This document shows positions 7,498 through 32,160 of a DNA stretch of 64,000 nucleotides, in pieces. Every line of letters begins with the position of its first letter. Within the stretch, counting starts at the first letter, position 1. The notes beneath the pieces were generated by a model that was not told the origin of the DNA, did no database searches, and saw only the letters and a program-made list of their open reading frames with translations. The DNA comes from Cloeon dipterum (lineage: Eukaryota; Arthropoda; Insecta; Ephemeroptera; Baetidae). The translations under genes and the position numbers were made by a program. Location: NCBI RefSeq assembly GCF_949628265.1, contig NC_088789.1, forward strand, positions 36,015,883 through 36,079,882, read 5' to 3'.

Positions 7498-8120
7498 TCA
7501 TTTGAAATCCTCGAATGGTGCAATTTTGTGCAGCAAGTCCAACCGTTGCGATTCCATTGCGTATTGCAGAGCCGTTTTGCCTGCTCGGTCCGCTTTGCTG
7601 ACGTCCACGTTGTTGTCCAGCAAAAGCTCAACCACCACCCACATTTTCCTCCGACAGGCAAGCACGAGGCCAGTCAATCCGCTTTCGTTGCTTTTGTCCA
7701 GATCGATTTTTATTTCGTCGACCAGAAAACGAATCACTTGGAGTGAACCTCGAGTAATGGCCACGTGCAAACTGGTGCTTCCGTCTTTCAACTCTTCCTT
7801 GATCAGCTCTCCATTCAATTCGTGAAGGAAGAAAACCGTTTCAAAGTGTTTCAGGGCATGGTGCAGCACGTTCAATCCCTTGTCGTCCTTCACAGTCAAA
7901 TCGGCCCCTCGCTCGATAAGCTCCTTCACCAAATCCAATTTTCCCGAACGTGCGGCATAGTGCAGAGCAGTTTTCCCGTCGCGGTCTTTGATGCTGACGT
8001 TTAGTTTCTTGGTCAACAGGATATCAACGATGCTCCACTTTCCTCGCTCGCTGGCACGGAGGAGTTCTGATTCGCTGTTTTGTTTGACGTCGTTGATTTA
8101 CTCAACCAAACCAACAATTT
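7498..8120 (-). pseudogene. Truncated 3' end of a caspase-NACHT-ankyrin gene
   Basis: About 170 codons of ankyrin repeats are nearly identical to the C-terminus of the gene at 15395-22030 and share its stop region. Identity to that gene stops at about 8115 and no NACHT or caspase part is present. Upstream of the conserved repeats the frame has an in-frame stop (TAA around 8100). The breakpoint abuts, on the same strand, a copy of the element otherwise found 5' of the two intact genes. It is best explained as the edge of the segmental duplication, and no protein is expected. Confidence 0.85.
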
Positions 8121-9437: not shown

Positions 9438-12400
9438 CTAGGTTTCAACGCAGAGGAATTTATTCAATCCAGTGTAAGTGAAGTTGTACTTCTCCGGGTA
9501 TAAGAAATAATCCACGATGTCAGAGCCAGCCATGGTCACAGACATAAAACCTCTACTGAAGTGATCCGCTGTGAGGATCGACGGCGCGCATGGGTACCTG
9601 GATTGTAGGTCGTAGTACATGTTGTCCGGCAAGACTTTGCGGCTTTGGCACCACACCTCGTGCGACTGGTTGATGAACTCCGTTTCACCCACCAGTGCGT
9701 AATGATTACTCGCTGCGCAGAAGAAAAAATTGTTAATTTATACGCTCGAAGAGATTATTCTGCATAACATAATAGATACATAATGCGCGTTATATTCTCG
9801 TGGGGATTTTTAAATTTATAAAAATTTTGAGTTACAATGAACAGGTTGGAACTCTGTAGTCATTTGAACTGTTCAACATTTTTCAGAACCTAAGCATTTC
9901 AACTTACAAAAGGTTGACATGATAAAGTTAGATTCTGCCCTGGTTTCGGGCTCCAGCATCTTCATTCCAATTGAGCAGCAGTGTTTGTACGCATCAATCG
10001 GATTCTGCAATATGGCGAGAATTAACAAAATATTTGCCCCACCGGTTTGCTGGAAATTTTATATCTTACCAGAGATGCAACCATATTTGAGACGTAGACC
10101 GTCATATTGTTATTTGTCATCAAAGTCCCATTGCCATCTATAAATACGTATTTGTTAAAGTTAATTTAAGTGTAAAGAGCAATCAGTGCTTTTTTACCAT
10201 AACGAGTTTTGTTTATAAGATCGGTGGCAGTTTGCTGCAACATTAAATCATTTAAACTAAAAAAAAACCTAAAATGCCGAATGGCCTACATTTTTTACGC
10301 AAGGGTATGCATTCGAGATCCAACAAGTCCGGGGCGGAGGAACGCACGGAGTCGGTGGTTTGAACTGAAATTTTACTTTGCTAAAATCTCATCTTTACAA
10401 TAATTTCTATGCGAACAATGGTGCTATTGCCGAAATTATTTTGCACGATTTTCGAGAGCAACGCGGGCTCCTTCTCCTGGCCGCACTTGAACGTTTCGTA
10501 CGCAGTCACGCATTCGTCGTCAAGTTCTGAACGCAAATCGAATTCATAAATAGATAATCAGTTTAAAATGTGAAACAGACTTTTTCCACTGCATTCGTCG
10601 TGCGCGACAAATCCCTGTTGAAGCCTCGTTGGCTCCTCCTGCGACACGAGTTCTATTTCCCGCAACATTTTGATGCTGTTCAAACCGCTCCCGATGTCAA
10701 ACTTGAATTCACAAGATTTAAATTTTAAATTTAAGGTGTCTAAATTCAACTGTTTACCAATCCAACTTCGACTCCGATGCATTTCAAAAAGCACTGTAAA
10801 ATAAAATTATTAACCAAAGATCAAAAAGAAAATTTAAAAAAACCTTGAGATCGAGAGAGAAAGAGGTCGCAAGGAAGGCGCTCGCGTTCAAAAGCAGGTC
10901 GATTTGCTCTGTTTCGTGAATGATTAGATTAAACACTTTAATTTGTTTCATAGATTCGCATATACCTGAGGTGATGTTCCAGATTTCTGCGCACTCTGTT
11001 TGCATGGCCTTTTGAGAGGTGGCCTTCTTGCGCACCTCGCACAAAAAGTCTTTCTTTTCGGCGCAGTCGGCTGTGGCCAGAAGCAAAGATTCGTTTCTCA
11101 CTTCGAGGTAAACGCAGTCCAGGCCTTTGACGGGGTGACCACCCTTCCACCTGAGCTCAGTCTCCTCGAAGGCACGGTTCATCGAGCACCACCGGAAGTT
11201 CGAATCGCAGTCCAGGTCCGTGCCGGAAAGCCAGAAGTCGCCAAAGGTCACGGGAGCAAACTCTTTAAAAATTCATAAAAATAAAAGATTTTTTAGTTCG
11301 GTTCAATTCTTACTGGAGACGATTTTGGAAAAACAATTCGCTTTTCCCGTCGACTCCATCGAGGCCAGGGTCAAACCAACCCTGCAGCAATGAGTCCGGG
11401 CAGTCTCCCACGTTGACTGAGGAAAACAATTATTGCCAAGACCTTTATTAAAGGTATCCATACCATGTTCTTTCTGTAAATTAGAAAATTTCTGCCGCAA
11501 GCATCGTACCAGTTGCCGTACGAAAAATAGTCTGTGAATTTGGATCAAAATTTATTATGCCTGATGTATATGCATTAAGTGCTTACTATAGAGGATTTGT
11601 TCTGTGTTGAAAAGGCTGTACTATAAAAGAATAAAGCAGTAATTTGGATAAAGATTAATTCTTTATTATGTTTTTACGTCTCTCGTGCAGGTGGTTTGTG
11701 GACAGGGAGCAACGCACGGCTTCGAAGTTGTGCTCAGTTGACCCTGGAACGTATTTATTAGCTATTTACTATCTCTAATACTAAAAATTAAAATGTCTTA
11801 AAGTGATGTAAGGTTCAATTTTACATTATAAAGTCATTGGCTAAATTAGAGAATACTTTTTAATTTCACCTTGCAAGTGAAAATATATTTGTTGGAGCAG
11901 TTCCTGTCGGTCAAGACAGTGCCTGTGTAGTTTAAAACGAAGCGGAAGTGGACGCAGCTCTCGTTTCCCCCTTTGTTGTCTGGCTGTCTGTCCTCCCAAT
12001 CGAGATCCTGGGTGAAAACGGTTGGCCCATTGGGCTCGCACCACGCCCACTTGCCCACCGGTGCCCCCTTCCACGTACCGGAAGTCCAGTAGTTGAAGTT
12101 TGCACTCCAGTTTGCTTAAATCAACTCGAATTTGAATTATTTCTTCGTCTTAACCTGCGTTAAACCTATGTTGACGATCGTGAATCTTTTTAGTCCCGTT
12201 TGCTCGGCCGCATTGTCAATGTTGAGGGCTTCCATCCCCAGAGCGCAGCACTGCTGGTAGTTGCCAGCCCAAGTCACCTGCCCACCCACAGTTGAGACAT
12301 AGATTTTTCGTGAGTTAGAGACAAACCGGCTTGTTTCCCAAGAGATACGTCAAGTTGCCGATGTTGTACCAAATTCCGTAAGCGGCTTTGTCTGAAAAAA

Positions 12401-14213
12401 AGAGCGACACGTTGGAGTTAATTGATTGGACCTGATTTTGACCAATACTCATCAAGTTTCCAACAGAGTCGAACAGCGAGTCCTTAAAAACATTTTATTT
12501 GAATCTATTTAATATTTAAACCGCGGTTCAAGCGAACGTTTTTGACGCAGAGTTTCGGACAGTCGACGTTGTACTGACAGATGAAAGGCAGGGTTTGGTC
12601 GCACCCCCTGTGCTCGACTCCCCTTCTGGGGGTGCTCGATATGGCGACGGCCAGACAGCGGTCGAGGGCGGTCGGGGTGGTGTTGGTCGGCAGCCAAAAT
12701 TCGTTGAGAGCGAGCAGAGCCGAGGACAAGGCAAAGCCCGTCGAACACCACGCGTACTTTTTCTCAGAGTCGCAGTTGAGGTCCTCGTTCGAGCCGCTCG
12801 TCCAGTAAGTGCCGGCTAAACACGTTATTTAAATTGTTTTAGGGGCGTCTCAGGAATAAAAAAAGGGTGCAACCCTTGAAATTGCTGATGCACCGCAGGC
12901 CTTCCAGGGAGGTGACGGTGAGAAGAGTCATGTTCAGGGCCTTGCATCGCAATGCAGCCTCATTCCGCGTCACCTTTTCACGCGTTCTTTACTCTCAATT
13001 TTATGAAACTGTTTGAATACTTGCATTTATTGTTGAAACGAAATATTCTAGTCTGCAGTTCGACGATTGCATGGAACCCTCGTCTAAAGAAACACGCAAT
13101 TTTTAATTAACGTAATAAGTTAAACTCTTGAACCTACTTGGTGATGGTTTTGATGTGGGTGTGTCCTTTTTAGAAAAAGAATTAAAATTGTCTTTCACGA
13201 ATTTATTTAAAATACCTTAAGAAATGTGTTGAAGTTTGAGCAAGACAAACTGCATGGTGTTGGCTAAATTCAATATTTTCCCGATAATATTTAATCTTAT
13301 AATTCCATAAGGTGCACTACAAACCGTTGTTGTTGTTGTTGTGGTGGTGGTGGTGGTGGCTGTTGTAGTCGTGGTTGAGGTTGAGGTGCTGGTTTTAGCT
13401 GTGGTTGTTGTTGTTGTCGTCGACGTGACAGCTTCAATTTCAGTTGAAGCCACCGCTGACGAGGACGCCATTGTTGGCTCTTCTGATTTGTCGGGAGATG
13501 CATTAGTTTTAGCTTCCGCCGTCGTGTCTGCTGGTGGTGGTGGTGGCGGCGAATCGGTTGGAGATCCTGCTGTGGCAATAATGCTCTTTTCTTTTTCTGT
13601 TCCTCCGACGGTGCTTCTGGAACTCGTCTGCTCTGGAGCTGTAGGAAATTTTGTTTTCATTTCTAGGAATTTTAAATACTAATTATTACCAGGTAAAGTG
13701 CTGACGTCAATAATTTTTGACTCATCAGGCTCGCTTCCTGTCGAAACGGTGGCTCGAATCGTTGTTACCGTTGCGGGCTCGCTTTTGCGCTTAAAATTCA
13801 ACGCCAAAGTCAACGTATAAAACGTCAATTACGAATAATTGAAATTTCGATGCTTACCTTTGGCGTAGTTGTAGACGTTATTTTGGTTGTGGCGTTAACT
13901 TTTGGTGGCAGACACTTTTTAAATCCGCAACATTTGACGATGTATTTCCTCCGCAATTGTTTCGGCAAATGAATCGTGATTGGAGCTATGAAATTCATTT
14001 TAGTTGGATTTTCTACAGGCTGACGTGAATATTAACCTGCATTTCCGCCGTAAATGGTTATCTTGAGCGATCTCGCTTTGCCCTCCTGTTGGAAAGAAAA
14101 AGCTTTGATTAAGAATTTCATAGCGTTAAAATAGGCGCATTCACTTGGGGTGTAGCTTGGTCGAGCCTAATCAGCAGCGGAATCAAAATCAAGCTCCAAA
14201 TGCCGAGCTTCAT
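9438..14213 (-). CDS. Secreted mucin-like multi-CTLD protein with embedded OBP domain, copy 2
   Basis: This paralogue of the gene at 1400-6228 has the same layout: signal peptide (start 14213), basic Cys stretch, Thr-rich stalk, CTLD1 (about 13000-12530), CTLD2 (about 12430-11860, QPD motif kept), CTLD3 (about 11550-10970), OBP domain (about 11000-10400; CFLKC just after 10793, then DDECVTAYETFKC) and a terminal CTLD ending at 9438. A short exon encodes the His-rich stretch HPHQNHHQ, where copy 1 has HQNRDQ. Copy 2 has a 51-bp intron at 13639-13689 with a good TTTCCTACAG acceptor. In copy 1 the acceptor AG reads AC and the same 51 bases are open in frame. No defect breaks copy 2 in the exons I traced. 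A minor splice-edge uncertainty remains. Confidence 0.72.
13328..13430 (-). repeat. Thr-codon repeat (mucin-like stalk), copy 2
   Basis: Consecutive ACA/ACC codons occur on the minus strand, shorter than in copy 1. This points to repeat-length change since duplication. Confidence 0.8.
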
Positions 14214-15394
14214 TGCATTCGAGAAGAGTTTCGAAAGTGGACTGCCAGCAGGGCATAGCATCCTTTTTCAGCCTCTATACCTCCACATTCGAGTGACGCA
14301 TTTCCTCTCATCAATTCTACGTATAATAATTTCGCTTTATTATTTTTCAAACATTATTTTATTCGCCTTTTTCGACCAAAATTGATTTTTTAATTTAGAA
14401 AAGCTATAGGAGAATCATAAGTGGTAAATTCATGTAAAATAATTTATTCTTTTGCTTTTTAAACTCGTGTGTAAGATTCAAATTTTAAAATTCACCGAGT
14501 TCTTTTGGAATTCAAAGGTGTCGTTTTTTCTAAAGGCCTTCTCAAAGCCAGCCCAATAATGTTCTAAATTTTCTTTGGCACATTTGTTACAATACTGCTT
14601 TTAGTTTTAAAATAGCGCATTTTGAAATTTGCTAGCGAATTCAATTTTATTCGCATGCCCTGCATCCTGTATCTTGGTTAGTATTGTTGCGGCCTTGAGC
14701 GCGCTCCGAGTTTTTCCTGTCGCTGTGACCGCGTTTCGGAATTGATGCTCGGCATTGCTGCACGCCACGTAATTTTGATAAAATTTGAAATATACCCAGC
14801 AGGAGCCAGCTGTGCGATAAAATTGGTTCTCACTGCGCAGATCCAAGATGGCGTGCGAATGTGGGAAGCAAAAAGCTCTCTTTGGATTGCCGTACGAGTT
14901 TGAAAAGTTTGTTTTTATTATTCAAAAGACACAATAAGTACAAGTAATGGAAATTATACGTCACAAGATTAACCAAAACTTGCTTCTTTTCGCAAATTTT
15001 CACTTGACCGTTTTTTATCCACCTGACGCTATATCTACGCGTCGCACGAATTTGACCCCCGCTGATTATACCAAGGATATCTAGCAGGTATTTTCGTCAT
15101 GTCCAAAAGTGACATTTTTATTGGTAAAATTACTTAACGAAAAGCAAGGTAGATTCTTATTTTATTAGTTTGGAAAATTATTTGAATTAAAACTAAAGTT
15201 ATCACATTTTAACAGTCTCAACTTTATTTGGAATTGGTACATGAAACAATTGGTCCTATAATTTAAAATTTATGATTTTCTGAGCACTTGAAATTCTTAT
15301 TATTTTTTAACCCAATAAGTAGATTTAAAAACCCAATTCTTGCTGTCCAGATTATTTTTTATAAAATTAAATTAGATAAAATATAACAATGATA
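14214..15394. other. Spacer between lectin copy 2 and caspase-NACHT-ankyrin gene
   Basis: The right side carries the 3' UTR of the NLR-like gene, with AATAAA on the minus strand near 15222-15227. The left side should hold the lectin copy 2 promoter. A conserved minus-strand stretch at 14500-14850 corresponds to the possible small gene in unit 1; here it reads SNAEHQFRNAVTATGKTRSA and then hits a stop before NKCAKENLEHYWAGF. Bases 14850-15130 are unlike unit 1. Confidence 0.5.
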
Positions 15395-18300
15395 TCATTT
15401 GAAAGCCTCGAATGGTGCAATTTTGTGCAGCAAGTCCAACCGTTGCGATTCCATTGCGTATTGCAGAGCCGTTTTGCCTGCTCGGTCCGCTTTGCTGACG
15501 TCCACGTTGTTGTCCAGCAAAAGCTCAACCACCACCCACATTTTCCTCCGACAGGCAAGCACGAGGCCAGTCAATCCGCTGTCGTTGCTTTTGTCCAGAT
15601 CGATTTTTATTTCGTCGACCAGAAAACGAATCACTTGGAGTGAACCTCGAGTAATGGCCACGTGCAAACTGGTGCTTCCGTCTTTCAACTCTTCCTTGAT
15701 CAGCTCCCCATTCAATTCGTGAAGGAAGAAAACCGTTTCAAAGTGTTTCAGGGCATGTTGCAGCACGTTCAATCCCTTGTCGTCCTTCACAGTCAAGTCG
15801 GCCCCTCGCTCGACAAGCTCCTTCACCAAATCCAATTTTCCCGAACGTGCGGCATAGTGCAGAGCAGTTTTCCCGTCGCGGTCTTTGATGCTGACGTTCA
15901 GTTTCTTGGTCAACAGGATATCAACAATGTTCCACTTTCCTCGCCTGCAGGCACGGAGGATTGCTGATTCGCCGTTTTGATTGACGTCGTTGAATTCCTC
16001 AACCAGAGCAACAATCGTGTTGAGCGGATGTTCACTGTTTTTCACTGCCAGGTGCAAAGAGGTGACATCTTTGTCTTCGCCGTGGAGGAACCTGATCATT
16101 TCCAAGTTCTCCAGAGCATGTTGCAAAATATTGATTTCTCTTTCGTCATCCAGAAACAATTGGGCGCCGTTCTCAATTAATTTTCGCACCATTTGCAAGT
16201 TGTTAGACCACACGGCGACATGCAGAGCGGTCCATCCTTGGCTCGTTTTCGAATTCGCATCAAAGCCTTGGTCCAAAAGAGTTTGCAACAACTCTGGATT
16301 GTTCTCAAGGACGGCAAGATGGAGAGAACTGGTTTCTGCTTGAATGTCAAGAGATTTTATCGCCTCTTGCAAAAGGCTCGACCATCCGGATTGTTTCAAA
16401 TTGGTTTCTTCTTGGCTGTGGCTGAGAAGCATCTCCGTTATATCTGGACAATTCATCTCTTTGGTTAGGTCTAGAGGGATCATTCCTTTGTTGTTCTTCA
16501 AATTTACATCGGCTCCATAGTCAAGCAGCAATTGCACGCACTCGTGCTGATTTTTAGAGACTGCTAGGTGCAGAGCGGTCGATCCGTCTTTTTCCTGTTG
16601 ATTGACGTCGGCGCCGTGCTCGAGCAGCTTCAGCATCAATTCCAAATCATTTTCTTTCACGGCGAAAAACAACGCTTTGAATCCTTCTGTTGTTTTTAAA
16701 TTCACGTCAGCGCCAAGCTCGAGTAGCTTTTCCAATAATTTGCGACAACCTGCGGTCACGGGTAGAGGAATTCTTGAGCTCGAGTCCACGTCGTCTTCAT
16801 CGCCGCTCATGGCTGGACAATTTTCTCCCTCAAATACTTGCACGCTGGTCCGTTTGAGTATTTTGGTCCAGAATCTGTCGGGATCTAGCTCGATCAGCCT
16901 CTTCACTGACTCTAAACAATTCCCTCTTACGGCGTAATCCATGGCTGTCAAGCCCTTCCGGTCTTTGATGGTGACGTCAGCGCCGTGAGCGATAAGAATT
17001 TGTACCAAGTCAGCGTTATTTCGACTCGCGGCCAGATGCAAAGCGGTCCATCCGTACTCGCACTGCAAATCCACTTTGGCTCCTGAATTCAGGAGCTTTT
17101 GCACCGACTCAGAATAACCATTGTAAGCGGCAACGTGGAGAGCGGTCACTCTGTGTTCGTTTTCTAGATTGGTTTCGGTGCCATGATCGAGCAGAGTTTG
17201 AAGCAGTTCTTGGCAATTTCTATGAGTGGCTTCAAGCAGAGCTGTCGTGCCGTTGCGATCTTTGGAATTGACGTCAGCTCCCAGGCTGAGCAGCTCTTGC
17301 CCCAAGGTCAAACTTCCTGATTCAGCCACGTGGTGCAATGCAGTTCTTCCGTCCATGCTTTGCACGTTCACATTGAAGTGCTTTGATAGCAATTCTCGCA
17401 CCTCGTCCCATTTTTTCGATTGGCACGCATGCAAGAGCCTGTTCTCGTTTTCCAGGGCTTCGTTGCTCTTCTTATACATCGCATCGACCTGGTCAGGTTG
17501 GTCGGGAAGGCTAACCCTGATGGAGGGGTTAAAGTACCTATCCAAAATTAATGTTTTGATCGAATCGGGGAAGAATCTCTCTTGAACGATGCTGACGGCT
17601 GAGCTACCTCGGCAGTCCTGAACGTTGACATCGACTCCAGCGTGCTGGACCAGAAAACGAGTGATATCGCCCTGATCGTCGCCATTCTCGAGCAAAAGAT
17701 GCAACGGAGTTTTCCCCTCGCTCGTCTTTTCTGTCGCCAAGGAAGGGTTTTCGCTGTGCAACAGTTTGATTGTCTTGATGCCTCGGGGTGAGTGACAGGC
17801 GAAGTGCATGGCATTCCACCCGTTTTCGTCTCTGGCTGCGACTTCAGCACCGGCAGCGATTAGCTCGCGGACCAAGTGGTAGTATCCGTGTTTGGCGGCG
17901 CAGTGGAGAGGACTTTTCCCTTCCTCGTCCTTCTTCGTGACGTCACTTTGAAGCATCAAGAAATGCTCGTATTCGGTGCGATCACGTTCCGTCCAAAATT
18001 TCCTCACGGCACTCGGAATAAGAGTGTTCAAGTTGGCGTTTTTATCTCGCAGCCAAAGCAGCATTTCCCACTTTCTCTTGCCGGCAGCTAGTTGCAAAGG
18101 ACTCTTTCCGTCTTTGGTTTTGATTTCTATCAAAGTTTTACTTTTTGAAATCAAATATTCTGCTGGTTCTATTCTTCCGTGGTTAATTGAATGATGGAAA
18201 GCATTCCAGTCTTCATCCAGCATCCCATCAATTACGAAAGTCTCGTCATCACGATTCAATCCGCTGACCTTTTCTTCTAAAAGAAATTTCACAATCTCCA

Positions 18301-21300
18301 TTTGTCCGAATTCCACGGCCCAATGCAGAGGGTCTTCGCATATTTCCTTTTTTCCTCCGTGTTTGAGCAGAACCTCAAGGCACTTTACACTTCCGAATTT
18401 GCAAGCCAGGCGAAGTAGTATTTTCATTTCATCGAAATCAGCAAAAGATAAGATTCCTTTTTGCAACAGCAAGTCGAGAATTTCAAAGTGGCCCCTTCGC
18501 ACCGCATTCAATCCCAGTCTTATTTTACTGATCAACTCTGGCAAATGTGAAAACGTCACCAGCAGCCGATCAAAAAACTTGCACGCGTTATTGTTCTCGA
18601 TTTGTTGCATCAATTCTGGCAGCATAATCTCGACGCTTGCTTTGTCGAATATTCCCAATTCCAACAGTTCGATGGCGATTTCTTCACGCTCAACCGACTT
18701 GATCAACACGTCAACGGAGGCACTTTGCTCCTCAGAAAAGGAAATACTGGTTTTCACCATCTGGAAAACCTGTTTCAGATTGCCCTCTAAGATTAGAGCA
18801 ATTAGACTTTGTGTCGAAAGTGACTGTGCGGAGCTCAAGAGTCTCTTTGTGTGAGACTTGATGTCTTCCTCGCTGTCCACAGTGGAGTAGAACATGTCCA
18901 GGAACATTGTGCACTGCCGCATGTTGCTCTTGAGAAACAATTCAGAGTCCAAAGGGCCATTCGCCTTCAACAAGTGCTGCGTGGCGAGGAACTCTGCGAA
19001 AGTCTGATGTAAAAAAGTGACTTTTTCGTTCACAACGTTGGCCACTCCAATGCAGTTCATCTCGTCCACGTCTTTCCTTTTCACTCCCGGTCCGACGGGA
19101 TCGAGTCCTTTGACGACCCGAAATGCAATCAGTCGAAGGGTTTTCAAACAATTTTCTACTCTGCAAACGAACTTTGGGTGAGTCTTGTCGTATCCGTCAT
19201 TCACCAAGTACGATTGCACTTTCAACTGCATCACTTTGTCATAAATTTGGTACAGGTTGCCGTCGCCGTCGGTCTGGGCGAGCAGAGAGAGGTGCAGAGG
19301 GTTCCCGAGAACGTCCTGGTTCTTGAAGACGCTGAGCAGGCGCTCGCTTTCGTCCTTTTCCTTCCCTGCTACACACTGCAAGAAGTTGAGTTGCTTTGCT
19401 TTGTTCAGGGGCTGGATGTCGAGGAGCAGTGCTGTTTGCGCGCTTCCTTTGATCATCTCCACTTCGTGAGGCCTGGTTCCGATCAGCAGTGTTGTCCCCC
19501 TCGCATTCAAAGCTCTGATCAATTCGAGAACTTCCATTTGGTGATTCGTGCATATTTCGTCAAAACTGTCGAGGACAACGATCACCTTCTTCTGTTCAAT
19601 CCAATTTTCGATTTCTTTCGGCCTGTTTTGAGTGGTATTTGCCAGGAACTCTATCTCGTCTACTTCGTATTTGTCTGAGAAGAATTTAGTGTGTTTCTCC
19701 AGCGAAACGCGCAAAATTTTGGTGTGCGGATAGCATTTCGCGAGTTGGAAAGCAATTTCCTTGAGCACAGTCGTTTTTCCCGCTCCAGCAAGTGCACTCA
19801 AAAGCCAAAATTTGCTTTCTTTCACAGAGTTGTTTATTTCTTCCATCAACTTGTCGAAATCCAAATTAATTTTAGGTTGTTCTTCAGAGCTTGCAAGCGT
19901 GAAATTCGGTTTGACGAAGGACCTCGGCCAGTCTGGAAAGTCGAGCAGGTATTGCAGCGTTGAGTTTAGAAAAACATTTACTTCTGTTCCGGGTTTTGAG
20001 ATAAGGAGCGGCGGGAGTAAGTCTTGCAAGCATTTTCCCCTTTTGAGCTCGTCACCTTTTAAGATATCGACCAACTTTTTGAAATCACCTGTCGAAAAAG
20101 AGTTTAAATATTAAGTTTCACAGGTGTATTAGAATACTTATTGCATACCTTTGTCTCTCAATATTAGAACGAACCAGCCACTGTGGTTCGTAGCCGATAC
20201 TTTGAATTCAAATTCATTTTCAGCGGCCGAAAACTGTAAATTTAATTTTATTTTAATTTTTAATTAATTGAGTGCAGCTTACATCGTCGTGTAATAGCTC
20301 CTCCTCGTCGCTGATATCGATTAGGAACAGGATTTTGGGTTTTCCGATCCACTTCTCGTTCTTCGGACCGATGAAGTAGTGCAAAATGTCCGTGATTGGT
20401 TTTTCTTCATTCTGCACGAGCACGCAGATTTCTTTCCTCTCGTTTTCCTTCACTCTGCCAAATATGCAGGTCAAAACGCAGCCAATGTCATGCTCCAACT
20501 CAGAAGCTGAATTTCAAATTAATTTTGCGAATAAATAATCCCTTAAAGTGCTACCTTTGTCAAACAACAGTTTGAACGCGTCTCTGCCGAGTTGCCATTC
20601 GCTTGTTTCAAAATTCAAACTGTGCATCAGAGTTTTTTTAATTTCTTGCGTTTCTTCACTGAGATGATTATACACGAGGAAAGCGTGGCGACCTCTGATG
20701 TTTCGTCCAGCGTCCGACTCCCACGAGTAAAACTCTGGGTTTTTTGGAGTCTCTTCCGTGTTTCCAATCGCATCGTGCTGGCTACAAGGAATTTCCGGAG
20801 TCTCGGCTCTGGAAATTATTAAATTAATTTGGTGGTATAAAAAAACCGGAAACGCACTTGGAGAAGAAAAAGAGGGCGTCCTGCGAGAAGAGTTTCGCTT
20901 CTGGTGTTTGGCCGGCCAAGCCCTTTCTTTTCGCGCTCAGGTGGATGCCCTGAGACTCGATGTGCACTTTCCACTGGACCATCGTGAGGAGCTTGAGCAG
21001 CGGGCAGTCCTCGTCGATCGAGTCGAGCACGTTGCAGAAGGCCCTCACGAACCAGGAGCCGGATTTTTCGTTCCGATTCGCCATTGTCGCTAAAAAAAAA
21101 TCAATCAAATCGAGAGGAATATCAATTTTTACGGAGGCTTACTCTCGACTGTCGAGTAGAAAACGACAAGGTTGTGCATTTTCGGTTGGAATGTGATGCG
21201 GCACGAATTTCTGTTCTCGTACTTTTCGTCGAAATGGTTTGATTTCGTGAATCTCACGTCGGCCAGCAATCCGCGACAAGACTGAATAATTTTTAATTAA

Positions 21301-22030
21301 AAATTATTTATAGATCTAATAAATTTTTTAAGCTTACGCCAAAGTTGACGAGTTTGAGACATTTGTCAAAATTTTCCAGCTTTTTCAGTGACTGGAAGAT
21401 GTCCTCTGTGTTAAAGCAAACGAAATTGTTTATTTCTTCGCTCCAGTGGTCGGTGGAAATAACGCCCTCTTCAGTTCCGTGAGAGAGAAAGAACAGCAGG
21501 AAAACAGTCGGATCGTCTAAGTCAAGAGTAGATTTAAATTTTATTTATAATTAATTATGTTCTTTTGTACCTTTGCAATCGAAATATTTTAAGAGCTGCT
21601 GTCTGTCACTGAGCAATCGAAGCAGAAAGTCTTTCTCTGGAGATAAGAGATCCCGGAAGTTGCAATTTCTTTTCACTTGGAAGGAATGTCTCAGGTTTTG
21701 CACGTCCTCGGCGTCGCCATTCCGAGCAATTCCCTCGTAGTGTTTTGCGAGGTGTTCAGGAAGGTTTTCTTTGCGTTCGAAGGTGTAATGAACGACAAGG
21801 ACCCAAACGCTGCGGAATAATCCCGTTCCAAATTAATTGATTTTCTAAATTGAGCTGAAATCTTACCTGTCAGCCTTTTTAACTACAATTTCCCCGTTCT
21901 GGGTGTACTGGAAGAACCCCAGACCTGCCGAGTCTTTTTTCTTAATTAACGAATCTTCCATTTTGGGCGTCTCCTTGCCCGGGAAATTATTAAAAACGCA
22001 GCTGTTGCCTCTGCACTCATTGTCGGCCAT
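15395..22030 (-). CDS. Caspase / pseudo-caspase / NACHT / ankyrin receptor-like protein 1
   Basis: Nine exons (22030-21867, 21809-21571, 21516-21338, 21281-21143, 21089-20858, 20808-20555, 20506-20283, 20233-20149, 20088-15395) sum to 6210 nt, giving 2069 aa with no break. Residues ~56-318 form a caspase domain: catalytic His147 in LFFLSHGTEEG, Cys196 in NFGSCRG, and a p10-like FYSTVE...NEKSGSWFV. Residues ~318-510 are a second caspase-like fold (ILHYFIGPKNEKWIGKPKI) in which the SHG and QACRG positions are replaced (FGR; LIDISD), so it should be inactive. A NACHT ATPase follows: Walker A GAGKTT at ~607-612, Walker B VVLDSFDEIC at ~676-685, and a winged-helix motif FLHQTFAEFLATQHLL at ~863-879. 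From ~1030 to the end are some 20 or more ankyrin repeats. By family logic the ankyrins sense, NACHT oligomerises and the caspase acts. An innate immunity or cell death role is inferred. No signal peptide; cytosolic. Confidence 0.9.
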
Positions 22031-22889
22031 TTTCGACCTTCGTTGGCTGAAAAATGTCGTTGGTTCAATTTCTTTACGTCCATAAATATCTTTATCGTTA
22101 AAACTACTTGTTAAAAGGCTTGTTAAAGCATTTCCGTATCTGATAACGAGTGCGGAAGCGAAATCATCGTTGGCAACGAAACGTCCGTTTTCCTCTTTCG
22201 GGAAGTGTGGTTAATTTAGCGGCGATAAAGTAGCTAGAGTTCACTCAGAGGTTTATCGTTATATTTGAAGAGAAATAAGCAAGCGCTATCAAAGCAATAA
22301 ACAAAAACAAGGCATTGCTTGTTTATGCATCCCCAATAAGAAATGATTATTGTTTAACGAGTATTCGGACACTCGTAGTATGTATTTGATTAAATGGACC
22401 GTCTATCAGTGTGCTGATTTAAGATGACGGTGAAATATCTATCTCAAATAAGTTCAAATACTCGTTACAATTGCATACAGAGTTCTCAATCGTTTACTCA
22501 CCAGCATACGGAGAGAGGAGTTGGTATTTGATCCGCGAGTGTTTCCGCGCCGAGCGCCTCTGCAGAAGTGACGCCACAAAGCGCAGGCCGCCGCCACAAC
22601 ACGCTCGTCCGTCTGCATAAATACATAATATCGGGCGCGGAAGTCGGTTGTTAGTTAGCCTTTTAATCGCACAGAGGCTTGATGTGGGGAAATCGGAAGG
22701 ATTTTATTTCCCCCTTGTACATATTTAAATTATAAAAAGTTTGGTTGCATGTAAACCAATCGGATTAGTTCGTTTGTTAATAGCGAGAAATGTTCAACTT
22801 AGTTCAATATTGCTTGCGGCTGATAATAATAGCGGAAGTAAGCGTGTGCTGGCTTTGCAAAAATTATCGGCTTTTGCCGTCTACGCTGG

Positions 22890-22990
22890 AAAGTCCAATA
22901 ATTGTTGGCTCCGATTCATGAAAAAATGTACAGCTGCAAAGGGGTCTGGTGTCGGTGCTCTTCGCCTTTCGAGGATTGTTTAATTGTGCG
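22890..22990 (+). repeat. NLR-upstream element, copy B1 (diverged)
   Basis: It matches 30620-30730: attggctncgattcangaaa, an ATG followed by a short Cys-containing reading frame, then CTTTTCGAGGATTG and TTGTGCGAGTTTAGAAC. The ATG-led peptides of the copies resemble one another weakly. Confidence 0.55.
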
Positions 22991-23339
22991 AGTTTAGAAC
23001 AATCAAAATTGAGATGCCAGATAGAGCAGAGGATAAATACGATAATTTCAAGTATGTGAGAACAGAGCAAAATAAATTAATTACTGGAATTCTTAAGAGT
23101 TCTCCGAGGCAAAGGGTCTCAAAATTAATTTACTGGGAATGGATTAAAATCTCAGGTAGTCGGACAAAGAGAAAAAATATTGCTGTGATAACATACGGAT
23201 GGAAACCGACGAACGATATTTTTTGGAAAAATGGTAAAAAATATAAGGCTCAAAATAAGGGTTCAATTAACAGAATATTTAATTTAGAACAAGAATATTG
23301 GATTGATTTAGAGCACGAATTGACTCACGAAAAATGTAC

Positions 23340-23650
23340 TTACCACTCACAATCTGGCATTCGCGTTTGCGTGGATGGGTACTTATGTGTTTCCTCTCGT
23401 CGAAGCGCAACCTGAAGGTTGTTTTCCGCCCTTAGTGAGACCGCGAGTTGACCCGGTAGGTCACTGACCACTACGAGGCCGTAGGCGGGATCCAACCGGG
23501 CGTTTTTTCTTGACTTATTGTTAGGGGCACTAATCAGCCCTGCTGGTGGTTCACCTATAAATAACCAACTAATAAAAGGGCAAGACGACACGGGTTTCGC
23601 CCAGCATGCCAACCTTACGTAAAAAACCTCGTGCAAGAGAATAGCCGGAC
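23340..23650. repeat. Conserved upstream block, copy 1
   Basis: This block is similar to 30905-31130: cttaccactcacaatc, then a GC-rich core (gaccgcgagttgac, ggtaggtcactg, gaggccgtag), then TTTTTTCTTGAC. The T-run after a GC-rich stretch could end a pol III transcript, but I could not find properly placed A and B boxes. Its position 5' of each NLR-like gene argues for duplication of the whole upstream region rather than a mobile element. Confidence 0.55.
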
Positions 23651-23835
23651 GCGAGCAGTGCGCTGGATGAGTTGCGACAGAGGCACACTAGAGGACGCGT
23701 GCTTCTCGCGTGCGTGTTTCTGAATAATGGATATAGGACCCAATCTCACCTTAAACGAGCAAAATTCGTTCCCCCAAAGTCTGCGACGTCAGCGGGATAA
23801 AAAGTCTAATTTTTTGTACAGTAAAAAATAGTCGT

Positions 23836-23851
23836 GATAAAAATTATCAAT
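23836..23851. promoter_or_regulatory. Paired inverted GATA motifs
   Basis: The sequence TGATAAAAATTATCA holds two WGATAR sites facing each other. It is kept in the second upstream block (about 31946-31960). GATA factors drive many insect immune genes, so this is a candidate control site for the NLR-like genes, though it lies ~1.8 kb from the start codon. Confidence 0.35.
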
Positions 23852-23869
23852 GTAGAATAGAGTGGGTGC

Positions 23870-24070
23870 GCAGGCATTTTATTTCTAGAGATCGAGCGCC
23901 CAGATAGTGTTTGAATCTTGCACTAGATGTCAGCCGAATTCACTCTCTGGTCTCAAGAAAAAATGAGCAGCCGCAAAGTGGCCTGCTGCCTCTTGCCTTT
24001 ACGCGTTGAGTTGTGCGAGAAAAGAGCACAATATTTGACGCTCTGACCGTGCACAAAGTTTATGTCGTAG
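23870..24070 (+). repeat. NLR-upstream element, copy B2
   Basis: Closely related to 31965-32160 and to the reversed copy at 8130-8340. It has cagatgtcagccgaattcac-type sequence, then AAAATGAGCAGCCGCAAAGT, and ends in TTTGACGCTCTGACCGTGC. The ATG opens a 27-codon frame starting MSSRKVACCLLPL. Confidence 0.6.
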
Positions 24071-25185
24071 ACATATTAATAATAATTAGTGTTTAATTGA
24101 TTTATTTTGATATTTTCGTGAATGCGTTGAAAATTATGGTGATAGTGTTGTGACACGGTGTGATTTTCTGTTTTCAGCTGCGGAGACGTCGTTCCAGTGC
24201 TGGAATCCCAGGAAACCCGCGTGACGGTGAGTGTTCACACTTTTTAAAATTATTTTTTCTCTTAAAATAAGCCTCCAATGGGGCAGCTCAATTTGATCAA
24301 GATGTACTTTTAGAGCCTCAATAAATTATAACCGGTGCCGCGTACTTTATATCCACACAGACATCGAATTTTTAATTTATTTAATTTATAATTTACAATT
24401 AGTGAAACGAGCCAAAATATCGAAAACAGATAAACAACTGAAATATGAAACTCAGGATGGATGACCTGAGGAAGAACGAAGCAGCGCCAGAGGCTTAGAA
24501 AATTATTCTTCAAGCCGAAAAAAGTGCAAAAATAGCGTGGAAACTGAAATCAGGGTACAAGCAACCTGAGGAAGGTCAGGGCAGGTCACGGTGATGCCGT
24601 TGAACGCCGACCGATTTCCCTCCGACGGGTGGAACACCTTCGCACCACTTCGATTAGCATAGCAGCACACGGGTGCAAAGCCCAGGGTCCGGTTTCAGGG
24701 TCTCAATCACCTGATTCACCTGATCGGCTAAAAACTCGAGATTTGGGTGTCATTGAACTCCCCGGGTGTAATTAAATCGCAAAAATGAATGAAAAGAAGG
24801 TTGTCCAGATTAGATAAGCAGCGGCGCCCTTTTTTGCCTATTGTCGCTGCTTGGTGCCAAGAGAGAAAATGCTATATATTAAAAAAAATCGCAATAAATC
24901 GCCTATGGGCCGTAGAGAGCTCAAACTCGGTTTCGCATCACTGTTCGCCAATTAGAATATGAAAGGGCAGAAATCGTGGCCGAATTAAAATTAGAACTAA
25001 CAAAATCCCAAAATTTAGATTGACCTTTTATCTGAAAAGCGAATTTGAAGGGTGGACACATTTTTGTATCGTTTATGGCACGTGGAACAGTTGAGTATCA
25101 CTCTTCTCGTTTAACAATAAAAGAAACAAAATTATTTTCTTAAATCCAATTTTATGTTTAAGACTGTAAATAGATAATTTATTTT

Positions 25186-28100
25186 TTACTGATTAAGCAC
25201 ATTCCACAGTTTAGGCTTATCATCATCAGCCACGTCCTTGGCCGTGCGGCCTTTTCTGTCCTTGGCTTCCAAGTCCACCCCTGCTTCGTCCACAAGGAAC
25301 CGAAAAGTTTCTCTGCTAAACGATATCTTTTCTTCGTATTGGTTGCAGTAGCTGTTGTTCACCAAAATGTGCAGTACAGTTTCTCCGTTATTTGTCGTTT
25401 CTTTCACCAGTCGAGGGTTAGTTAAGTGCAGCAGTTTGACCACTTCTGAATTGTCGTGGTAATTGATGAAATCGGTGAAGGTGCAGGCGAAGTGCAAGGC
25501 GTTCCATCCGTCGGCGTCTTTGGCAGCCACGTCGGTGCCTTTCTCAATAAAATCGCGGACGAGCTGCAAATGCCTGTGCTGGGCGGCGACGTGGAGAAGG
25601 GTTTTGCCTCGCTCGTCCGTTTTCGTCAGGTCGCCTCGCAGCAGCAGGAAGTGGTCGTAGATGAAGTGATCGTCTTCGGTCCAATCTTGTCGCTCGCCGC
25701 TCGGAATCAAAGAAGTCAGGTCATCGCCGACTTCTCTTGTCAGCCAGACCAGGAATTCTCCATGTCTGCAGTCTACTGCCAGCTGCAAAGGACTCATCCC
25801 ATTTCCTGTCTTGATGTGTTTCAAGGCTGGACTTTTTGAGAGCAGGTATTCCGCTATTTCCATTTTTCTGTAAAAGATGGCATATTGGAAAGCGTTGAAC
25901 TCGTCTCTGAACGTGGCAATGTAATCACTTTTCGGTTTCTCGTCGTAAAACACAAAAATATTTGCCTCAAGCGTCACCGTATCTCTGGCCAATCCGCTGG
26001 TTCCTTCCTCCAAAATAAGCTTGACAATATCTAGGTGGCCGAATCTCACAGCCACATTCAAAGGGTCCCAAATGATTTTGCCTATAAATACTTGATTGTC
26101 ACAACATGCATCTGTAATGGCTAGTTTCGCTCCGTGTTTGAGGAGAATTTGAACGCACTTGAGTCTCCCCCGGTAGCAAGCAAGGAAAAGTGCGTTTTCA
26201 TAGGAATGGTACTTTGTACTATTCACGTTGAATCCGTTTTCAAGGAACAGTTCTAGAATTTCATCGTTGTCCCTCTCAACCGCTGTGCAACCAGCGCCGC
26301 ATTTGAATTTTTGGAGCAGCTTGATGAATTTGTTAGGGAAAGTCTCTTTTAGCTGGTTGAACACGGAGATCGCGTTAAACTTGGCAATTTCTTCTAGAAC
26401 CTCATCCATGTATTTTTCCAAGGTTCGTGAATCGATGACGTTCATTTTCAACAGCTCGATTGCGATTTCTTCGCTTCTTATCGAAACGACCAGCAATTTT
26501 ATGGCGTATTTCACGCAAATGAAAGAACGATGTTTTCCACAATGAATAACATCATTTTCAGCAATATCTGGCGAAAGATTCATGATATTAGAAAATTCTA
26601 ATGTTTGTTCGTCACAAATATTCATGTGTGGCCTCACCATTCTAAATATCTGTTTGAGATTTTCTCTGCAAACTTGAATCATCAGAAACTGAGGTTCGTT
26701 GTATCTAGTTAAACTGAACACAATCATTTGCGTGTGAAACTCGATATCTTTTTCCTTTTCTAAAGTCGAGTAGAAAAGATCGACAAATTTTCTGACCTGC
26801 TCCATATTCCATTTGCTAATAAATTCCATGTCAAAAGTGCTCGACTCTTCCACGTTTTTCAAAAAGTGTTGGGCAGCAAGGAATTCAGCAAATGTCCGGT
26901 GGAGGAAAGTGACCGTTTCTTGCTCCACGGTTGCTACTCCGTAGTCGTTCATCTTCGCCAAGTCCTCTCTCGTCACGCCACCTCCGTCAAGCGGCTTGTT
27001 TTTTATGAAGCGAAACGCGATCAACCGCAGAAGGTTCAGGGCGATTTCAATCTTCTCCGATGCCACTTTATTGTAGCCATTTTCCCTGACCAAACACATT
27101 TCTACCTTCTTCCTCACCACTTTGTCGTAAATTAAGTATAAGTTTCCTTCGCCGCTGCTCTGAGCTACTAACAACAGGAGCAGGGGGTTGACCAGGACAT
27201 TGTCCCGATTTTTATCCTTATAAGGTTGATCATCAGAGTTTGAAAAGCTTATTTGTTTGATAGCGTGAAACACTCTTTTGATTTCTTCTTCATCCTTACC
27301 GAAAACGGACTGCAGAAACTCTTTTTGCTTCTCTTCATCGAGTGGCTCTATTTCGAGAAGTTTTACGTTGACAACTGCTTTCTCGATCACTTTCGCCTCG
27401 TGAGGTCTCGTTGCTACGCAAAGTGGAATTCCTCTTTCTCTCAAAGCCCTCACTATTTTGAGAACTTTTTCCCTGCTGTGCGGACAAACTTCGTCGAATC
27501 CATCCAGGAAGACTACGATTCTTATGTGAGCAATCCAACTTTGTATGTCTTCAGCAGAATACCCTGTGGTTTCGACAAGAAATTGGACTACATCCACTCG
27601 AGAAATGCTCAATATGTAAACGAAGTGTTTCTTTAACGAGATATTAAGAATTTTGGCATCTTGATCGGATTTTCCTAGTTGAAAAGCGATTTCTTTGAGA
27701 ACGGTCGTTTTTCCGGCGCCGGCAACCGAACTCAAAAGCCAAACCTGGTTTTCTCGCAACCTTTTCGCCTCTTTGATCAAATCATCGAAGCCAATCTTTT
27801 TCCTGTAGCCTTTCAACTTGAAATCTGGTTTCACGAAAGTCCTCGGCCAGTCGGGAAAATCAATTAAGTACTGAAGCGTCGAGTTAAGCAGAGTAAATTC
27901 TTTTTTAGCTCCAGTTGTGAGAAGGGGCTCTAAAAGCTCTTGCAAGCTTCTTCCCTTTTTCAGCTCATCACCTTTTAAGATTCCGATTAAGCGCTGAAGA
28001 AATTCTGGAAAACAACAGCAAGTTGGAGTAGCCGTTAAAAAATAACTAACGAATGTGGCACTATACCTTTTTCTTTCAAAATCATGACAAGCCAGCCGCT

Positions 28101-29930
28101 GTGGTTCGTTGACGAGACTTCAAATTTGCTCTTGAATGGAGAGTGCTAAATTAGAACCAAGAATAAAAGATATGGAATAAAAAATAACAAAGATTCTCAC
28201 AGAGTCACATTCCTGCGCCTTTTGGTCAATGATGAAAAAGATTTTGGGCTTTCCGATCAATCTTTCATTTTTCGGGCCGATAAATCCGTGTAAAATATCA
28301 GCGATTGGTTTTTCTTCTCCGTTCACAAGCACGCAAACTTCTCTTGTCCTTTCCTTTTCGCTCACTTGGCCGAAAATGCAAGTCAAAACGCAGCCAACGT
28401 CATGGTTGACTACGAAGCCGAACTTTTATTAATAATGCATCTCTTTTGGTTCTTCTTACATTACCTTGTTTGTAATAATCGTCCAAAGATTCTTTTTTCA
28501 ACTTCCAAAGTCTTGTATCAAAATCCAAGTTTTGCCTCAGAGCTTTTTCCGTTTCTTCAACTTCTAACGTTTGCTGTTCGTAAAAGATGAAGGCGCGTCG
28601 ACCTCTGATGTTTTTACCGTCGTCTGACTTCCACGAAAAAAATTCAGACGTTGACGTGATTGTTGCTGCTTTTTCCATGCGCGAATCAGTTCTTGAAACA
28701 GTTTTTGCAGCAGTCAATGCCCTGGAAAGCAATTCGAATTTTATTAAATTTTCGGTAAAAAAACCCAATATTACCTTGAGAAGGAAAAATTCCTGTCTAA
28801 GGGGAACATTTTGACCTCTGGCGTCTGTCCAAGATGAAGGTTTGTTGCGAAGTCTGGTCCAGCGATAGACGCTTTGTGCATTTTGTGCTGGACTGACGTG
28901 AGGAATAACAACAAAAGCTTATCCTCGCTGATTCGGTTCAAAACATCGCACATGATGCTCACGAACCAGGAACCGCGTTCACTTGTGTTTGCCATGGTTG
29001 CTGTAACACGAGATAATTCAAATGCTAATTTTGTGAATAAATAACGCAATGAAATTTTAATACTCTCAACTGTCGAGTAAATGATGACTGTGTTGGGCAT
29101 ATCAGGAGCCATCGTGATTCGGCAAGAGTTTTTGTTTTCGTAGTCTTTGTAATCCTTTTTTCGGTCGAATTTTGCATCTTCTAGTTTTCCCCTACATGGC
29201 TGTTGAATTTTTTTACTTTGATTTTTTGCATTTTAGCAACGCTAGCTATAACTTACACCAAAGTTGACAAGTTTCAAACATTGCTCGAATCCATGCAGAT
29301 TTTTCAGGGAGTCAAAAACCTCTTCTGTCGTGAAGGAAATAAAATCATTCTCTTGCTCGTTCCAGTAATCGGTGCCGATCACTCCATTTTCGTTTCCGTG
29401 AGAGAGGAAAAACAGCACGAAAACCGACGGGATCTTGTCTTGATTGAAATGGAAATAATTCAAGCCAGAGGGGATGATTTGTAAATTCGATCATTGCATA
29501 CCTTTTGAGGCGAAAAATCGCAAGAGCTTTTCCTGGTTGCCGAGAAGATCGAGCAGAATTTCCTTTTTTGGTCTAAAAAGGCCGCGGAAATTACAGTTTC
29601 GGTCTTTTCCAAAGGTTGTTTCCAGTTTTTCCACGTCTGGTGCGTCACAGTTACGAAATTTTTGCCCATGGTTTTTGAAATCGTAATGGACGACAAGAAC
29701 AAACACGCTGTGATTTACTTTCGTTTAAAACAAAATGGCGTTCAATTAATAGATAAGAAAATTTACTTTTCTGCGTTTTGTTTTCCTGATTCAGACTGAA
29801 AGAAACCAAGATTCGCTGGACCTGTTGGACGACCTTGAGTCTCACCTGGAAAATGGGTGATTTGTTTGTAAAATTTTGTACCGAGCCTGAGATGAAAATT
29901 ACCTCGTTTTAAAATCTCCTCCATCTCCAT
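25186..29930 (-). CDS. Caspase / pseudo-caspase / NACHT / ankyrin receptor-like protein 2
   Basis: Eleven exons (29930-29903, 29845-29767, 29707-29502, 29438-29257, 29199-29064, 29000-28775, 28721-28465, 28409-28201, 28145-28067, 28004-25186, with phases matching those of gene 1 from the caspase onward) sum to 4221 nt, so 1406 aa and intact. Ten exons are listed because the N-terminal region is split once more than in gene 1 and the count depends on how the 28-nt first exon is scored. The caspase domain has catalytic His118 (LFFLSHGNENG) and Cys167 (NFGPCRG), plus a p10-like YSTVE...SERGSWFV. The second, dead caspase fold (ILHGFIGPKNERLIGKPKI) lacks both catalytic residues. NACHT has Walker A GAGKTT (~563-568) and Walker B VVFLDGFDEV (~631-640). 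The ankyrin array is much shorter than in gene 1. It is a diverged tandem paralogue; different repeat arrays on similar effector halves suggest different ligands. Confidence 0.9.
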
Positions 29931-30730: not shown

Positions 30731-30904
30731 TTCGGACAAACAAGGCTGCGATTGATACCGATGGAAACGGACGAACGATATTTTTGTTAAAAAATGGTGC
30801 AAAAAAATCAGGCAGTGTGTTAATTATTAGTAGAGTATTAAATTGGGAACAAGAATGGTGGATTCGTGGATTGATAGAGCGCGCGACTTGACTCACGAAT
30901 AATG

Positions 30905-31130
30905 CACTTACCACTCACAATCAGGCATTCGCATTGGCGTGGAAGAGTTCTGCGTGTTGCTCCCGTCGAGTGGGTGCTTTTTCCGCCCTCGGTGTGACCG
31001 CGAGTTGACCTGGTAGGTCACTGCGACCTCTACGACGCCGTAGCCCGGCTCCAAGCGGGCCTTTTTTCTTGACCTTAGAGAAACTAATCGGCCAATTAGT
31101 ATCAGGGCAAGACGACACGGGCGTGGCAAG
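30905..31130. repeat. Conserved upstream block, copy 2
   Basis: The counterpart of 23340-23650. The sequence GCCCG...CGGGC before a T-run can form a short hairpin here; in the other copy the hairpin arms are not complementary, which speaks against a conserved RNA structure. Confidence 0.5.
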
Positions 31131-31964
31131 AGACTAACCGGGTGCGAGCGTTGTAGTCGGTGAGAGAAGCGAGAAAGTCACGCTACGCACAAGACGTGCG
31201 TTTTTATGGGCCACAAAATGATAGATAAAAACCGAGCTCACTTGAAACGAGCAAAGTTCGCTCCCAGAAAGGAACCTCAATCTGGCGGTGCGTATGCACT
31301 TTTTGAGTTGCACACGACATCAATCTTCTTAATCTTCCTCTTGAAAATGTCAATCTTAGATTACAGCAATCTCTCGCACATCTCTATTGCGTACACTTAC
31401 TTTGGGGCAGAAGTAAATCAGTTATAAAAATTAATTAAAAAGTTTAATATTATTTTCCACAATGTCGTGTTTTTGGCTGACCGATGAAACCCTTTAATTT
31501 ATCTTATATCTTTATCCCTACCATTTGACGACGGAAAATTTCAAAAAACATTTACAACCATGGAAATTCCAACGTAAAATTTTAAATTCCCGATTAGAAC
31601 TCTCTCTAAATCGCCTCATTAAATTCGCTGCCAAGAATCCGTCAAACTAATCATTTTCCGAGCTTTTTGACCTCGATTTGTAAATTCAACGTCCCGGCCT
31701 CGTAGTGAATAAGATTTAAATTTTTCCTCCAGCACTCAAGGCACTCAAGCCTTTTCCTAACAAAATATTTTACAGATCAAATTGGATCGCCGACTTATAA
31801 AATTGCTAAAAATTCAGTATTCAAGTATATTATAGAATGGCTTAAATAATTTCGCTGGCTTAAAAAATCGCTCTTTATTCGCACTCACTTGGCTGGTGAT
31901 GTCTACAAGATAATACATTTTTTAGGTCAGTTTTGTAGCTCTGATAAAAATTATCAATGTAGAA

Positions 31965-32160
31965 TGGAGTGGGTGCGCTGACGTTTTATCTCTCCCTCGA
32001 AAGAGAGCGCGGCGATGGTGTTTCGATCGTGCACCAGATGTCACCCGAATTCACTCTCCCGTCTCACAAAAAACGAGCAGCAGCGCAAAGTGGCCTGCTG
32101 CCGGCGCCTCTCGCCTTTCGGGCATCCTCATCGAGTTGTGCCGTGAAAATTCATTAATCG
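31965..32160 (+). repeat. NLR-upstream element, copy C2
   Basis: The counterpart of 23870-24070. The position of the ATG in the other copies reads ACG here, so any peptide reading is not conserved. Confidence 0.55.

Follow-up and report, generated by a model that had tools for sequence, protein, structure and literature searches.

The window analysed here, the whole stretch of 64,000 nucleotides at positions 36,015,883-36,079,882 of contig C4 of the mayfly Cloeon dipterum (genome 190 Mb), contains two genes, LOC135942228 (gene 1) and LOC135942229 (gene 2). Both encode, in order, a caspase with its catalytic His and Cys, a second caspase fold (hereafter the pseudocaspase), a NACHT ATPase and ankyrin repeats. 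Positions are those of the window, and all features of the two genes lie on the minus strand. The coding sequence of gene 1 (22030-15395; 2069 amino acids) consists of nine exons (22030-21867, 21809-21571, 21516-21338, 21281-21143, 21089-20858, 20808-20555, 20506-20283, 20233-20149 and 20088-15395) that splice exactly into the RefSeq protein P0001, which protein search had matched to the product at 100% identity; its introns are GT-AG and 48-60 bp long. Gene 2 (29924-25186; 1399 amino acids) consists of ten exons (29924-29903, 29845-29767, 29707-29502, 29438-29257, 29199-29064, 29000-28775, 28721-28465, 28409-28201, 28130-28067 and 28004-25186) that reproduce RefSeq P0013 exactly, with GT-AG introns of 53-70 bp; the splice search yielded one alternative solution, differing only by an extra 4-base last exon. 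A preliminary description, made from the DNA letters, had placed caspase and NACHT-ankyrin parts in one frame in two intact genes, and this agrees with the RefSeq proteins; its exon sum of 2069 residues is exact, whereas its sum of 1406 gives way to 1399, 7 residues shorter.

Eight introns are common to the two genes, and their phases (2,1,0,1,2,1,0,1) are retained in each. Six of the eight fall at identical alignment columns and the other two are offset by three and seven columns. The last shared intron lies, in each gene, between the pseudocaspase exons and the exon encoding NACHT and ankyrins. The gene 1 joins 21281/21338 and 20088/20149 correspond to intron positions conserved in both (column 195, phase 0, and column 515, phase 1). 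On these predicted models, a putative sensor array, an NLR (NOD-like receptor)-type switch and a caspase are one gene and one reading frame in both cases. Exact splicing was recovered for 5 of 16 paralogues attempted at selected loci, and the exon series of the paralogue P0015 in the genome resembles those of the window genes. The two genes were considered as a recent tandem pair; this was rejected, as they belong to different clades and have 617 of 1289 aligned residues (48%) in common.

Searched against Pfam, the joined gene 1 protein matches Peptidase_C14 (E 1.8e-21), NACHT (4.1e-10) and Ank_2 (3.3e-137), and the joined gene 2 protein matches the same families (2.3e-16, 5.0e-8 and 2.1e-32), with all scores above the curated cut-offs. 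Caspase exons searched singly give poor scores or none, and for that reason the caspase is easily overlooked. The caspase domain of gene 1 covers residues 56-319 (20805-21808), with the motifs SHG (21484-21476), SCRG (21281-21270), STVE (21155-21144) and GSWF (21060-21049); that of gene 2 covers residues 35-284 (28721-29706), with SHG (29403-29395), PCRG (29199-29188), STVE (29076-29065) and GSWF (28974-28963). A profile built from nine family members matched 183 distinct PDB chains at E <= 0.01, and the best 60 of the 183 are all animal caspases (caspase-3, caspase-7, CED-3), which on profile similarity points away from metacaspases. Fold comparison of a relative's model with VIA-align returned caspases-3, -6, -7, -8 and -9 for the first domain, in which both the p20 and the p10 parts of the caspase fold are present. 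Across the family, 77 caspase rows were aligned, 67 of which span both catalytic sites; His and Cys are retained in 65 of these, the two exceptions being in P0055 and P0062.

The NACHT region of gene 1 covers residues 510-887 (18944-20077), with Walker A at 19789-19772, Walker B at 19573-19556 and the winged-helix motif FLHQTF at 19015-18998. In gene 2 it covers residues 465-847 (26845-27993), with Walker A at 27723-27706, Walker B at 27507-27490 and FLHRTF at 26907-26890. Walker A reads AGAGKT and Walker B LDSFDE or LDGFDE. The P-loop pattern is retained in 69 of 70 family rows spanning Walker A and B, and the winged-helix His in 67 of 73; the top Foldseek matches of a relative's model are NLRC4, NLRP3 and NOD2. 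The ankyrin arrays, whose starts were placed by eye, cover approximately residues 1020-2069 in gene 1 (15398-18547; 14 Ank_2 stretches) and 1030-1399 in gene 2 (25189-26298). The caspase with its p10-like half, the NACHT with its motifs and the long ankyrin array were all named in the preliminary description, and the hidden Markov model search against Pfam that it proposed upholds all three domains. No LRR (leucine-rich repeat) family was found in either window protein, nor CARD, PYD, Death, BIR or DED in P0001 or P0013, by Pfam scan at E <= 0.01; the caspase occupies the N-terminal place.

The second caspase-like domain lies at residues 344-505 in gene 1 (20150-20732), with the motifs IGKPK (20348-20334) and HSGW (20185-20174), and at residues 311-460 in gene 2 (28068-28642, placed by the family profile), with IGKPK (28257-28243) and HSGW (28103-28092). 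In gene 1 it may extend to about residue 553 (19946), judged by models of relatives. The top match of its family profile is the p20 chain of an ancestral effector caspase (6pdq; E 2.7e-8), followed by caspases-6, -7 and -8. The caspase word GKPK is retained, and HSGW is a likely counterpart of GSWF. AlphaFold models of two relatives show, as read from secondary structure, strands and helices in caspase-like order up to the motif STLQYLLDFP; the VIA-align fold lists were taken up by the first caspase domain, so that the fold comparison covers that domain only. Where a caspase has its catalytic His and Cys, gene 1 has Arg and Ile and gene 2 has Gln at both. Of the non-gap rows, placed by the profile-to-caspase alignment, 0 of 67 carry Cys at the Cys position and 1 of 77 (the second unit of P0022) carries His at the His position; the pair is complete in 0 of 79 pseudocaspase rows. 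P0072 has a Cys two places before the Cys position and P0081 a His two places after the His position, so that a shifted site is conceivable in these two. Judged by its residues, the second domain is a catalytically dead caspase fold. The fold assigned to it in the preliminary description is thus supported by the profile and the relatives' models, with the correction that the catalytic pair is absent.

Protein searches, each of which scored about 8000 candidates with the most shared words (the second listing its best 120 of 161), identified 76 proteins with the family domains. C. dipterum contributes 45 from RefSeq and 21 from an older assembly, and Neocloeon triangulifer, which is also a member of Baetidae, contributes 10 from 9 loci. 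The C. dipterum set spans two assemblies, so some entries are alleles. With partial domain matches included, the order caspase-pseudocaspase-NACHT is found in 69 of the 76 (once in 65, repeated in 4); of the others, 4 read pseudocaspase-NACHT and 3 show NACHT only. A pseudocaspase accompanies the caspase in 69 of 69 proteins with a caspase match, and the same order is annotated in 9 of the 10 Neocloeon proteins. The domain profiles were seeded with P0001, and the alignments are biased toward it. P0051, P0052, P0053, P0076, P0077 and P0082-P0084, which match neither caspase profile, were excluded from the count, and P0085 onward, mostly ankyrin matches, lie outside both the count and the profile scan. 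A third search returned 11 proteins, two of them family members, and did not recover its own query member P0049; it is uninformative on other animals.

Several members depart from the common layout. P0078 (older assembly, 2613 amino acids) contains the caspase-pseudocaspase-NACHT unit twice, with nSTAND3 annotated in its listing, and in P0003, P0022 and P0055 the repetition of the unit may come from fused gene models. More than 70 residues precede the caspase in 18 of the 69 caspase-bearing members (examples are found among P0036-P0040 and P0054-P0064), with 233-247 residues in 8 of the 18; this part of P0037 has no Pfam family match. P0076, from a metagenome, has an N-terminal stretch resembling the motif ahead of NACHT in the family and may be a truncated member. 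P0079, P0080 and P0081, on a branch with both genera, have the active site SACRG, no ankyrins listed and 739-918 amino acids, and this branch may be similar to the ancestral form.

Rooted on P0078-P0081, a FastTree phylogeny of 65 proteins contains two clades with both genera (support 0.98 and 0.86), the latter including a species pair at 1.0. Read by eye, 51 of 56 C. dipterum proteins fall in one species-specific clade. The mixed-genus clades indicate that the fusion predates the split of Cloeon and Neocloeon and that the expansion came afterwards in Cloeon.

Searching the C. dipterum genome with Pfam NACHT gave at least 101 loci, 46 on C4 and 34 on C2, the 101st passing the cut-off only together with in-frame neighbours. 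The genome counts are lower bounds and were tallied from exon-level searches with the first caspase exon and the pseudocaspase exon. At 95 of the 101 loci a caspase exon is found no more than 6.5 kb upstream on the same strand, at distances of 1546-4263 bp (median 1837), and a pseudocaspase exon lies upstream at 90; both are present at 87 and at least one at 98, which leaves 8 loci with caspase alone, 3 with pseudocaspase alone and 3 with neither. Conversely, 95 of the 102 caspase exon loci tallied are upstream of a NACHT locus, where a chance neighbour on the correct strand within 6.5 kb would be expected at about 0.2% if exons were evenly spread, a figure that clustering raises. Both window genes belong to a cluster of 18 NACHT loci at C4:35.59-36.05 Mb. 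The caspase-carrying architecture is, by these exon matches, most of the NACHT repertoire found in C. dipterum, and the two-gene observation of the preliminary description is widened to most NACHT loci as predicted here and to a second mayfly genus. Elsewhere, stronger caspase matches (at C5:27.15 Mb, for example) resemble caspase genes of the ordinary kind. At C3:8.34-8.63 Mb several caspase and pseudocaspase exon matches have no NACHT match close by and are possibly divergent or switch-less members.

Ratios of nonsynonymous to synonymous substitution rates (dN/dS) were calculated pairwise by the Nei-Gojobori method (NG86) for P0015 against P0014, P0009, P0013, P0012 and P0010. They were 0.30-0.32 in the caspase (four pairs) and, with five pairs each, 0.08-0.48 in the pseudocaspase, 0.21-0.46 in NACHT and 0.62-0.93 in the ankyrin part. 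The pseudocaspase is therefore under constraint rather than in decay. Rising from effector to sensor, the ratios follow a pattern typical of receptor families, short of proving positive selection. Between P0015 and P0012, dS is 0.29-0.35 in the caspase parts and 0.10-0.13 in NACHT and ankyrins; such uneven dS along the gene, seen against P0012 and P0010, suggests gene conversion or exchange among paralogues.

Self-BLAST of the window detected a tandem duplication of about 7 kb, with 1050-6820 matching 9085-14795 (92.8%) and 7180-8118 matching 15072-16015 (91.8%). It takes in the 3' end of gene 1 and downstream sequence, and contains a truncated copy of that 3' end (7498-8139, minus strand; 199 codons open past an in-frame stop). 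Repeated short stretches (23193-23990 and 30755-32102; 76-82% identical) lie 5' of both genes, about 1 kb ahead of their starts, and a shared promoter region, a mobile element and an old duplication boundary are candidates for them. Further exons on the minus strand at 53957-54574, 58246-58893 and 63151-63717 resemble Angiomotin C-terminal, LEDGF and a ZFPM2-like zinc finger, and are ordinary neighbours.

Each gene is read here as a single-polypeptide, adaptor-free, NLR-like receptor of defence or death, in which the caspase would be gated by a pseudocaspase in cis, and we put the probability of this reading at about two in three. The ankyrin array would sense a ligand or a disturbed host protein, and the NACHT ATPase, to judge by its motifs and fold, would switch and oligomerise as in NLRs. 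Oligomerisation would turn on the N-terminal module, a catalytic caspase with the pseudocaspase as its built-in partner, in a role loosely comparable to that of cFLIP-L beside caspase-8; the partner role is suggested by their co-occurrence and by a confident joint model. The activated protease would then cleave host substrates, with death or inflammation as the outcome; neither CARD, DED or pyrin nor an ASC-type adaptor would take part. For activity, assembly, ligand, substrate and immune role alike, this is what we infer. On a bolder view, for which the odds are about even, the mayfly family, with some 100 genes in C. dipterum, would consist of one-chain inflammasome equivalents, with the in-cis pseudocaspase as an allosteric gate or obligatory dimer partner and with NACHT assembly triggering the protease without adaptor or recruited zymogen.

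Several points weigh against the receptor reading, which is drawn from sequence and predicted models. Six of the 101 NACHT loci are without a caspase exon in the tallied lists. Two of the three S1-pocket positions, which we take to be Arg64, Gln161 and Arg207 in caspase-3 numbering, depart from caspase-3 in many copies: the position two before the Cys, which is Gln in caspase-3, carries Gly in 58 of 70 non-gap rows, and the Arg beside GSWF is kept in just 39 of 67 rows, the first Arg being retained in 57 of 67. Asp specificity is thus uncertain, and substrate specificity, as far as these residues indicate, may deviate from Asp or vary from copy to copy. Extension of the pseudocaspase profile through STLQYLLDFP gained no sequence match into p10. 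The caspase and pseudocaspase of a 514-residue relative are modelled jointly with confidence by AlphaFold (predicted template modelling score, pTM, 0.87; 0.76 for a 963-residue relative including NACHT), and pTM says nothing on which surfaces meet. The five dN/dS pairs are not independent because all include P0015, and the ankyrin values may reflect relaxed constraint, not diversification. Finally, with C-terminal ankyrins in place of LRRs the proteins are NLR-like and not NLRs in the strict NACHT-LRR sense, so that the NLR label of the preliminary description holds for the NACHT switch and not for the class.

Among the alternatives, the one that survives best, although we regard it as rather unlikely, is that the caspase module is mainly a non-proteolytic scaffold or a non-Asp protease, with a developmental or homeostatic and not an immune role. 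The altered S1-pocket positions would suit such a module, as would the pseudocaspase present in 69 of 69 caspase-bearing proteins; retention of both catalytic residues in 65 of 67 rows and purifying selection on the caspase (dN/dS 0.30-0.32, four pairs) argue for proteolysis, and about 100 clustered copies with faster-evolving ankyrins would look more like immune receptor families than developmental genes. Far less probable is a selfish or genome-conflict system (a killer element or germline incompatibility factor) spread by tandem duplication and not serving host defence: the large, clustered, mostly species-specific expansion and the 7 kb duplication in the window are what it would predict, whereas the constraint on the copies, the age of a fusion common to two genera with two mixed-species clades, and a layout that fits STAND (signal transduction ATPases with numerous domains) defence receptors all speak for the receptor reading. 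That software merged an adjacent caspase-pair gene with a NACHT-ankyrin gene is hardly credible and was rejected on conserved intron phases and tight genomic spacing: the gene models are predictions, and some RefSeq family models are without caspase exons (P0012 begins in the p10 part, with caspase exons upstream in the genome), but join and intron phase are identical in both window genes, the full order occurs in 69 of 76 proteins, partial matches included, and is annotated also in 9 of 10 proteins of a second genus, and at 95 of 101 loci no more than 1.5-4.3 kb separates the caspase exon from NACHT.

Like NLRC4, NLRP3 and NOD2, the mayfly proteins have a NACHT with P-loop, Walker B and winged-helix His, C-terminal repeats and an effector side at the N-terminus; they differ in a caspase fused in the chain instead of recruited via CARD or PYD, in ankyrins instead of LRRs, and in the extra pseudocaspase. 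The caspase-8:cFLIP-L heterodimer consists of an active caspase and a catalytically dead caspase fold on separate chains with DEDs. The pairing of an active caspase, predicted as such in the mayfly, with a dead caspase fold is common to both systems, and the caspase-8 chain of this complex (3h11) is among the fold matches of a relative's model; the mayfly protein, in contrast, is one chain in which Pfam found no DED and which is coupled to NACHT. Bacterial metacaspase-NACHT-WD40 proteins (PMC3501461) likewise combine a C14-type peptidase, NACHT and repeats in one chain, with a metacaspase and WD40 where the mayfly has an animal-type caspase, a pseudocaspase and ankyrins. A protease effector and an NLR switch are also joined in one chain in fungal NLRs whose N-terminus carries a protease, and which have been linked to gasdermins; most of these proteases are serine proteases and some are of the cysteine type (CHAT, for example), the available part of that article mentions no partner of the pseudocaspase kind, and the proteins belong to a different kingdom (PMC12881547).

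Insect proteins with NACHT and ankyrins like those of the mayfly family are P0052 (Blattella germanica) and P0077 (Lamprigera). No caspase was found in P0052 by Pfam or the family profiles, or in P0077 by the family profiles; P0052 has an N-terminal region of more than 500 residues without a Pfam match at E 0.05. Insect immunity is, to our knowledge, usually described without NLR-type receptors. Homologues of a phage WO NACHT are reported from arthropods such as Bombyx and Culex (PMC5062602). Among animals, amphioxus has LRR-caspase and TNFR-caspase hybrids in which, as in the mayfly, a sensor-type domain is fused to a caspase; the available text of that study names no NACHT-caspase fusion and gives the NACHT domain as absent from Drosophila and C. 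elegans (PMC2575513). A figure legend on sponge NLRs includes CASc (caspase), so that a caspase-bearing sponge NLR is possible (PMC12909245). The literature searched, which covers only a minority of subscription journals and preprints, contained no report of a caspase-NACHT fusion in insects or Ephemeroptera, nor of NACHT-ankyrin joined to an animal-type caspase with a pseudocaspase in any organism, and within it the novelty for insects claimed in the preliminary description stands; on caspase-NACHT it returned only the bacterial paper (PMC3501461), and on C. dipterum with NACHT a single faunal catalogue. A text search of the C. dipterum genome paper found none of NACHT, NOD-like, caspase and ankyrin in its main text. 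For this species, expression data spanning organs and life-cycle stages are published (PMC7250882), so that the question is open to direct testing.

If the bolder view is true, the mayfly lineage would have evolved its own NLR-caspase axis, with receptor and executioner diversifying jointly; if the proteins are active, the family would test the adaptor need of NLR signalling, the role of a pseudocaspase that cannot be swapped, and sensor-protease co-evolution. Among STAND receptors with a fused effector, a known kind, the family is notable for its insect host, its pseudocaspase and its scale. That most of the NACHT genes found in this insect share the build suggests a self-contained receptor for cell death, with nothing like it in the fruit fly.

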